DNA of 14,116 nucleotides from a bacterium (lineage in GTDB: Bacteria > BMS3Abin14). Location of the stretch: assembly GCA_029210545.1 (NCBI GenBank), contig JARGFV010000066.1:1-14116 (forward strand), in the 5' to 3' direction. The first letter of the stretch is position 1. Each line of letters opens with the position of its first letter. Shown here piece by piece: positions 4,416 through 14,116 of the stretch. The translations under genes were made by a program, and so were the position numbers. Under the pieces are notes generated by a model, which saw only the letters and a list, made by a program, of their open reading frames with translations, was not told the DNA's origin and did no database searches.

Positions 4416-4432
4416 GGGGCGGTCATAGATAA

Positions 4433-4467
4433 CCTCGCAAAAAGTCTCTTCGAGCCAATTTGCGAGG
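4433..4467. repeat. Decayed piece of the hairpin element
   Basis: CCTCGCAAA (4433-4441) pairs with TTTGCGAGG (4459-4467), a 9-bp stem, and contains the element core TCGCAAAAAGTC (4435-4446). The other half of the usual unit is missing or diverged. Confidence 0.45.
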
Positions 4468-4506
4468 CGGGGGATGAAAATTCTTCGGGTTCCTCCTATT
4501 CCCGCC

Positions 4507-4535
4507 TTGTCAACAGGTTGTTGCTCCCATAGAAT
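4507..4535 (+). promoter_or_regulatory. Predicted promoter for the DUF502/PAP2-like pair
   Basis: TTGTCA (4507-4512), a 17-base spacer and TAGAAT (4530-4535), each 5 of 6 to the sigma-70 consensus. It lies 92 bases before the chosen start, so the hairpin at 4563-4590 would be in the leader. Confidence 0.6.
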
Positions 4536-4562
4536 AGAGTCTCTTCCGGCAGTCATGACGCC

Positions 4563-4590
4563 GCAAAAAGTCCAGTCCGGGACTTTTTGC
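4563..4590. repeat. Solo hairpin unit of the element in the DUF502 leader
   Basis: GCAAAAAGTCC (4563-4573), loop AGTCCG, GGACTTTTTGC (4580-4590): a perfect 11-bp stem with a 6-base loop, nearly identical to the unit at 8227-8258. The outer terminal part (AGTCCATC) is absent. Confidence 0.75.
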
Positions 4591-4626
4591 TCGACACGGT
4601 TCACCATCAGACACGGGGAGAGATTC

Positions 4627-6504: not shown

Positions 6505-6844
6505 AACGGTTGATAGGGTCGCAAAAAGTCCAAGCGGAACTTTTCCTGGCTCATTGATGTCCTGGGGAAAGGGAAAAGCGTGGTTTTCCCTTTCCTCACG
6601 GTGACTGCTGATAATCACCAAAGTCTGTGCGAGACTTTGGCTCAACGGGAACCGAAAAGCGTGGTTTTCGGTTCCCTCACGGATCGAACACACAGCCATT
6701 GGCACTCGATCCGGGCGCCCTCCCCGGGCGCGGCTGCTTTCATCGGTCATCGATCCGGGCGCCCTTCCCAGGCGCGGCTTTTCATTGATTTGGGCGCCCC
6801 ACGCGGGGCGCGTTGATGACTTTTTGCGAAGTCATCAACGGTTG
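6505..6844 (+). mobile_element. Complete MITE-like multi-hairpin element with flanking direct repeats
   Basis: The element body is 6513-6836, flanked by AACGGTTG at 6505-6512 and 6837-6844. The ends are inverted repeats sharing TCGCAAAAAGTC (left 6519-6530; right inverse 6819-6830 with one mismatch). Internal hairpins in order: 6566-6595 (12-bp stem, loop GCGTGG); 6618-6640 (CCAAAGTCT, loop GTGCG); 6647-6676 (12-bp stem, loop GCGTGG); 6715-6731 (GCGCCC/GGGCGC); 6759-6775 (GCGCC/GGCGC); 6794-6811 (GCGCCCC/GGGGCGC); 6811-6840 (12-bp stem, loop TTTGCG). No believable protein is encoded. Order and spacers are repeated in the minus-strand copy at 13889-14116. What is seen is structure and duplication; transposition by an enzyme supplied elsewhere is inferred from termini plus direct repeats. 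Confidence 0.8.
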
Positions 6845-7759: not shown

Positions 7760-8221
7760 ATGAGACTTTCCACCAAGAGCCGATACGGCGTCCGTGCATT
7801 GTTCGATATCGCTTACCACTCAGTGGGTCTTCCCACCCAGATCAAGGATATCTCGAGGCGCCAGCAGATCAGCCCCCGGTACCTTGAGCAGATCTTCCAG
7901 AAGCTCAAGAAGGCCGGTCTTCTGGGGAGCAAGCGGGGCCCCAACGGCGGGTATTACCTTCTCAAGGACCCGGCCGACATCACCCTTGGAGACATTGTAA
8001 GAGCCACCGAAGGACCTTTTCAACTTGTCTTTTGCGCCAGTGAAGCGCCCAGAAAGAAGTGTCCCCGATCGGATGATTGCGTCGCACAGAAGATGTGGCT
8101 GGATATCAGCAACCAGATCGGCGATTTCTTCGACGCCATCACTATCAGCGACCTTTGCGCCAGGGCTCGCATCGTTGGTGTGGAACGGGAATATGACCAC
8201 CCCTACACGTATCAGATCTGA
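7760..8221 (+). CDS. Rrf2-family transcriptional regulator, IscR/CymR-like
   Basis: A 153-residue winged-helix regulator. The N-terminal DNA-binding part is classical: MRLSTKSRYGVRALFDIA, then ISPRYLEQIFQKLKKAGLLG and the wing SKRGPNGGYYLL (about 57-68). Three cysteines, C92, C101 and C107 (spacing X8 and X5), sit where IscR-type members ligate a [2Fe-2S] cluster, so it may sense iron-sulfur or redox status. CymR, which has no cluster, is the alternative for a sulfur regulator. ATG 7760 follows AGGGG at 9 bases. Usual partner genes such as a cysteine desulfurase or scaffold are not in the window. The nearest downstream gene is a sulfur-transferase homologue (larE), beyond a repeat. The stop codon lies in the candidate target duplication of that repeat. 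Confidence 0.93.
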   Translation: MRLSTKSRYGVRALFDIAYHSVGLPTQIKDISRRQQISPRYLEQIFQKLKKAGLLGSKRGPNGGYYLLKDPADITLGDIVRATEGPFQLVFCASEAPRKKCPRSDDCVAQKMWLDISNQIGDFFDAITISDLCARARIVGVEREYDHPYTYQI

Positions 8222-8274
8222 TAGAGTCGCAAAAAGTCCAATCCGGGACTTTTTGCGAGTCCATCAAATCTGAT
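8216..8274. mobile_element. Minimal copy of the hairpin element (ends only) at the rrf2 stop codon
   Basis: TCGCAAAAAGTCC (8227-8239), loop AATCCG, GGACTTTTTGCGA (8246-8258): a perfect 13-bp stem. The right arm continues into GTCCATCA (8259-8266), so GGACT can pair alternatively with AGTCC. The ends match those of the complete copy but the internal hairpins are absent. ATCTGAT flanks it on both sides (8216-8222 and 8268-8274) and the first copy includes the rrf2 TGA. It could serve as a terminator. The rest of the spacer to 8386 shows only a short CCGGT/ACCGG hairpin (about 8301-8313). Confidence 0.7.
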
Positions 8275-13888: not shown

Positions 13889-14116
13889 GATGATGGACTC
13901 GCAAAAAGTCCATCAACGCGCCCCGCGCGGGGCGCCCAAATCAATGACAAGCCGCGCCTGGGAAGGGCGCCCGGATCGATGACCGGCAAATATGTCAGCG
14001 ATCCGTGAGGGAAGGGAAAACCCCGCTTTTCCCTTCCCGTAGAGCCAAAGTCTCGCACAGACTTTGGTGATCTATCAGCAGTCATTGATTTGTAAGGAAA
14101 GGGAAAACGACGCTTT
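13889..14116 (-). mobile_element. Second copy of the multi-hairpin element, minus strand, cut by the window end
   Basis: Compared with the complete copy, the same units appear in the same order on the minus strand: 14096-14116 (12-bp hairpin, cut); 14045-14067 (AGACTTTGG/CCAAAGTCT); 14009-14038 (GGGAAGGGAAAA/TTTTCCCTTCCC, loop CCCCGC); 13954-13970; 13918-13935 (GCGCCCC/GGGGCGC); 13892-13914 (GATGGACT/AGTCCATC). One of the two GC hairpins of the complete copy is missing. The spacer words (GATCGATGACC, TCAATGAC) also match. The far terminus lies beyond the window, so a flanking direct repeat cannot be tested here. Confidence 0.8.

Follow-up and report, generated by a model that had tools for sequence, protein, structure and literature searches.

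A non-coding element of ordered hairpins is probably a MITE mobilised in trans by an IS1182-like transposase

The window, a 14,116-nucleotide contig from a bacterium of the BMS3Abin14 lineage, carries near its middle (6505-6844) a stretch made up of one hairpin after another, which raises the question of whether this stretch is mobile and, if so, which enzyme moves it. A first-pass annotation had described it as a MITE-like body with inverted ends and an 8-base direct repeat. We found that the feature is a real transposable element, with the element proper spanning 6512-6836 (325 bp; Table 1) and containing no ORF of transposase size. The inverted ends are present as claimed (arms 6505-6530 and 6818-6843, 81%). 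The 8-base repeat AACGGTTG can be read at 6505-6512 and 6837-6844, but the true target-site duplication is the 7-mer AACGGTT. The right limit of the body, previously given as 6513-6836, stands, while its start moves to 6512: all aligned copies start with G and nearly all with GAT or GAC, and we therefore take G6512 as the first base of the element. Nearly every copy begins with the pattern GAT/GAC...TCGC. The duplication is 6 bp in most copies and 7 bp in the window copy.

Table 1. Positions in the window of the element, its parts and its further copies
Feature	Position	Strand	Remarks
Left target-site duplication AACGGTT	6505..6511	+	Identical to 6837-6843
Right target-site duplication AACGGTT	6837..6843	+	
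Complete 325-bp MITE, long form, two fused units	6512..6836	+	Structure model matches 6512-6598 and 6610-6836
Left terminal inverted repeat GATAGGGTCGCAAAAAGTC	6512..6530	+	Pattern GATNNNNTCGYAAAAAGTC abundant in own genome
Hairpin B of first unit, 12-bp stem, loop GCGTGG	6566..6595 (within 6563-6598)	+	Compensatory stem variants elsewhere
Second complete unit, degenerate left end GATAATCACCAAAGTC, expanded C/D part	6610..6836	+	Covariance model match
Hairpin A', 9-bp stem	6618..6640	+	
Hairpin B', 12-bp stem	6647..6676	+	83% direct repeat of B, complementary changes
Hairpin C' (CGGATCGA / TCGATCCG)	6680..6713	+	Inverted pair
Two tandem 39-nt C/D blocks, spacing 44	6697..6779	+	85% identical direct repeat
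Hairpin D (GCGCCCC / GGGGCGC)	6794..6811	+	From sequence; aligned to D of the core
Hairpin E with right terminal inverted repeat (6818-6836)	6815..6836	+	Seen as 6811-6840 including 4 flanking bases
Further long-form copy, cut by contig end	13892..14116	-	119 bits over 13892-14076
Partial copy, cut by contig start	1..84	-	74.7 bits
Minimal 46-bp copy, two ends only, near-duplication AGATCT/AAATCT	8220..8265	+	
Degenerate copy, second subfamily, right limit uncertain	4428..4600	-	End motifs at 4436 and 4562-4581

The copy and the partial copy that the first-pass annotation had placed at the right and left ends of the window do exist, each truncated where the contig stops; the 46-bp copy and the second-subfamily copy starting at 4428 had been overlooked. 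A genome-wide search, as the annotation had advised, returned many further copies. In its own 2.72-Mb genome (G000), the query gave 53 matches, with the best full-length relative at 95%, and long-form copies elsewhere were 80-95% identical over the whole form. The 12-base end motif TCGCAAAAAGTC occurred 376 times (reversed control, 0) and the pattern GATNNNNTCGYAAAAAGTC 298 times (control, 0), and forms of the element range from 46 to 325 bp. Several genome matches sit at contig ends, and this contig both starts and stops inside a copy, from which it appears that the repeats interrupt the assembly. The same ends also define a second MITE subfamily, represented by L213:1054-1205, L204:17428-17584, L087:4576-4703 and the window copy at 4428-4600, which shares 38 bp at 94.7% identity with L213:1054-1205.

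The flanks of these copies carry the mark of insertion. In 21 of 55 oriented copies, the six bases that border GAT are exactly those that border ATC, compared with a maximum of 4 when the right flanks were shuffled (500 shuffles), and the duplicated site prefers AANNTT inside the palindrome TTC-AANNTT-GAA. One copy (L080:3189) sits within another repeat and is flanked by AACTTT twice; a paralogue of that repeat (L206:13968-14204) has a single AACTTT, is 95% identical across the junction and is thus an exact empty site. Another copy, also within a repeat of this kind, joins two neighbouring AANNTT sites with a loss of 13 bases, the product to be expected if two insertions had recombined. Further copies, an empty site and direct repeats at most insertions, the three signs by which the annotation had proposed to judge mobility, were all found. 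In the orthologous PAP2-nfi gap, element ends are absent from G002 (approximately 89 bp, L120) and G008 (approximately 613 bp, L119), where the assignment to genomes is presumed, and divergence of the flanks precludes reading a base-exact empty site. The same genome also contains another dispersed repeat that is rich in hairpins but unrelated to the MITE (CTAGGAGTCTGTCGGAGAACC... and GTTTGTCGGAA...), with copies at L206:13968-14204, L215:9613-9849, L095 and L116, into which the MITE has inserted at least twice.

When ends were paired in 728 kb of the genome, the common element proved to be 140 or 141 bp long between the outer TCGC motifs and 155 bp in full. We aligned 40 copies from the own genome and related genomes (155 columns) and found five hairpins in the fixed order A, B, C, D, E, A opening the unit on the left and E closing it on the right; B has a 12-bp stem and a 6-base loop, C a stem of 13 bp and D a G+C-rich stem of 7 bp. 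A covariance model of this ordered unit, a kind of search that had also been recommended, recovered copies across the family, with at least 155 matches in the own genome (a lower bound; 150 first-look candidates were scored), 11 to 151 in each of ten other family genomes and zero in G001.

Within the unit, pairing is conserved more than sequence. Under the named structure, 94.7% of the cells are paired. Thirteen pairs have changed on both sides, with 44 such cells against 11.8 in shuffled alignments (0 of 500), and sliding the partners reduced the double-sided changes to 1-7 pairs; these compensated-pair counts are not independent events. Stem B occurs as ggaaagggaaaa, gggaaccgaaaa, ggaaacccaaaa, ggaaagtgaaaa, ggaaagcgaaaa and other variants, always matched by the complement across an almost unchanged loop, and hairpin E, unlike the left end, re-forms perfectly round the variable outer bases in 27 of the 40 aligned copies. 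Stem changes are compensated across genera, and from genus to genus within the family the hairpins keep their order and the unit its length (about 150-155 bp).

The window copy follows the same plan. The structure model identifies 6512-6598 as the left part of one unit, and the covariance model matches 6610-6836 with 108 bits over model positions 1-153; because both stretches match, we read the 325-bp form as two fused units with extra C/D blocks and not as a new design. Recombination between units would fuse and lengthen elements in this manner. As DNA, the element folds 6.5 standard deviations better than shuffled sequences, none of 100 being as good, and the stem-loops that had been claimed within the body were confirmed for B, A', B' and E.

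Beyond this genome, a search of 386 genomes located GATNNNNTCGYAAAAAGTC in 11 of 12 genomes of the same family, at low numbers in G002 and G008 and at zero in G001, with controls essentially zero. The TCGT form of the end was frequent in G275 (261), G103 (135) and G370 (79), which represent two unrelated families, and sampled insertions there have identical 6-base flanks (e.g., ATCTTT, ACCATT, ATTCCT). A G370 copy, its right end cut by the contig start, folds into hairpins A, B, C and D one after another, four in all, whose stems differ in sequence, and part of its interior matches the second subfamily of the window's genome (79-81% over 48 bp), a likeness that suggests transfer between lineages. 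The first-pass annotation considered an ordered hairpin series unusual for a MITE, a reasonable view, as copies with the same ends in G053 and G181 fold as one dominant stem. The 261 end motifs of G275 mark short elements of about 100 bp, one of which was sampled and has little interior folding, and no homologue of the candidate transposase described below was detectable in that genome. G001, a complete single contig of the same family, has Y1 transposases and no element ends and represents a natural element-free relative. Among viral contigs, two specific end patterns gave 0 matches, and a loose pattern gave 20 single matches without partners, which we read as chance level.

If the element is acted on in trans, its end motif might also be expected at the ends of a transposase gene, and such genes were found in G000 and three other genomes. 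The G000 gene (L267:1241-2905; G000:C1) is a PF01609 gene encoding an IS1182-like protein of 520 aa. The ends of this IS, GATGGACCCGCAATTAGTC and GACGGCATCGCAAAAAGTA, match the MITE ends, and a MITE is inserted directly beside it. A relative in G370 (61% identical) lies between GATGAACTCGTAACAAGTC and GATGGCTTCGTAAGAAGTC, which are of the TCGT form found on G370's own MITEs, and the IS ends in G009 and G007 likewise match. Given that the IS shares the terminal repeat of the MITE both here and in three further genomes, we propose that the IS1182-like DDE transposase is probably the enzyme that mobilises the MITE in trans.

Full-length relatives of this protein score above the cut-offs for PF13751, PF01609 and PF05598; the best NCBIfam profile, NF033551 for IS1182 transposases, reached 116, 159 and 182 bits against a cut-off of 270, and the IS copies have no clear duplications of their own. 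The G000 copy has an in-frame deletion of about 81 residues, including a YRxRAG[IV]E segment kept in the relatives that, we infer, contains the third catalytic residue, presumably a glutamate, and an intact partner transposase was not found in this assembly. Two complete IS1182-type genes in G103 and G053 (L372, L373), which encode PF13751 transposases of other subgroups, have no such ends in the fetched loci. On Microvirga plasmid NZ_CP069355.1, an unannotated, IS1182-like relative (36%; L371:1459-3240) has ends GACGGGGCGGTAAAAAGT, which also conform to the pattern of the other IS ends, inside the palindrome ATGACGGA...TCCGTCAT. A full-length autonomous element should appear as two ends separated by 0.7-8 kb and bordered by the same 6 bp; a search for this arrangement gave 2 matches, both ordinary genes between separate copies, and the PF01609 loci of G007, G009 and G003 had no matching ends in a first survey, bar a MITE beside a gene.

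Judged from sequence, with many copies, duplications, an empty site and a transposase with the same ends, the description of the feature as MITE-like and acted on in trans is supported, and we consider it likely that the element is a cut-and-paste type II MITE with a DNA hairpin interior, served by an IS1182-like DDE transposase. The transposase would bind the MITE ends GAYNNNNTCGCAAAAAGTC in trans, and cut-and-paste insertion at AANNTT would give the 6-bp, sometimes 7-bp, duplication; as the G000 IS copy is deleted, movement would either be past or depend on an IS copy missing from the assembly. That same deletion, together with the many element-bearing genomes in which no homologue of the candidate is detectable, could mean that an unrecognised transposase does the work and that the IS1182-like gene shares the ends by coincidence or common descent. 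We regard this as unlikely, since in two lineages the motif stands at both IS ends and shows whichever C/T variant is typical of the lineage. Hairpins at both ends, and Y1 genes in 8 of the 12 family genomes, this one included, might instead recall a single-strand (Y1/RAYT-type) transposase that recognises hairpins, as in REP elements and IS200/IS605, and this enzyme had been suggested in the first-pass annotation. Y1 transposition, however, does not give 6-bp duplications or an exact empty site, and Y1 genes do not track the element: G001 has the genes and no element, G006, G007, G010 and G011 (some of them incomplete) have the element and no Y1 match, and the fetched loci of the two best Y1 matches (G000, G003) have no element end. 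Mobilisation of this kind is scarcely credible.

The interior poses its own question. If the element were a functional RNA (a terminator, processing element or regulatory element) spread by transposition, selection on RNA structure would account for the strong single-strand folding and for stem changes compensated across genera. This reading, close to the mobile structured RNA or insulator proposed earlier, is very unlikely in view of several observations: copies point with and against their neighbouring genes about equally often (11 and 13, by a simple ORF caller), they are not enriched between convergent genes, an Rfam search of the element gave 0 matches at the gathering threshold, and G-T (G-U type) mismatches are no commoner than A-C mismatches in the aligned copies (39 versus 58), so that neither strand is favoured. 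Because mismatches are balanced and orientation bias is absent, we infer that hairpin pairing is kept at the level of DNA and not RNA. Pairing would be kept by selection for a compact fold joining the two ends, by template-switch correction of imperfect palindromes during replication, or by both. Correction together with divergence of duplicated units may in fact suffice, with the order merely inherited and no selection needed. Strand-symmetric mismatches, tandem internal duplications and the lack of a gene-context preference all fit this account, but drift alone should erode order and spacing; the order and the length of about 150-155 bp persist across family genera, and the distant G370 repeats the order for four or more hairpins with stems of its own. 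We hold this account to be a serious possibility that falls short of probable. Unlikely, in our estimate, is that the five-hairpin order, which persists from genus to genus and recurs with other stem sequences in another lineage, is itself a selected transposition module. If true, a DDE transposase or the host would read the structure of the interior in addition to the terminal repeats.

Several known systems resemble the proposed type II MITE in part. IS1182-related MITEs are on record in Methanosarcina acetivorans, where ISMac2-related elements of 160-169 bp occur in 7-14 copies (PMC3852290). These, too, are short and non-coding, with terminal inverted repeats and an IS1182-type partner, whereas the present MITE has about ten times their copy number, 6-bp instead of 0-4-bp duplications and an ordered hairpin interior. 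BOX elements of Streptococcus pneumoniae combine fixed outer modules with variable inner stem-loop modules and are likewise modular composites for which mobilisation in trans was proposed from TIR similarity (PMC3049150); the likeness is one of plan only. That paper reports no comparable empty site for one or more of the three repeat families of the pneumococcus, while clear duplications and an empty site are present here. The Chunjie MITE of Geobacter uraniireducens, intergenic, 178-235 bp long and present in dozens of copies, is similar by its published description in its intergenic location, conserved ends, duplications and size variation (PMC10969869). REP/REPIN sequences with RAYT (PMC2817692, PMC3116915) are also high-copy intergenic palindromes in mosaics, but the present MITE duplicates its target, ends in GAY...TCGC and would be served by a DDE and not a Y1 transposase. 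In the open-access literature searched, a limited library, high copy number, a 6-bp duplication, a candidate IS partner and ordered covarying hairpins were not found together, and a text search for the end motif returned nothing relevant.

These related MITEs number in the hundreds; their sequences vary but the hairpins keep their order and pairing, and a candidate transposase and a defined target site come with them. This natural set allows a test of whether internal DNA structure affects the movement or the tolerance of bacterial MITEs.
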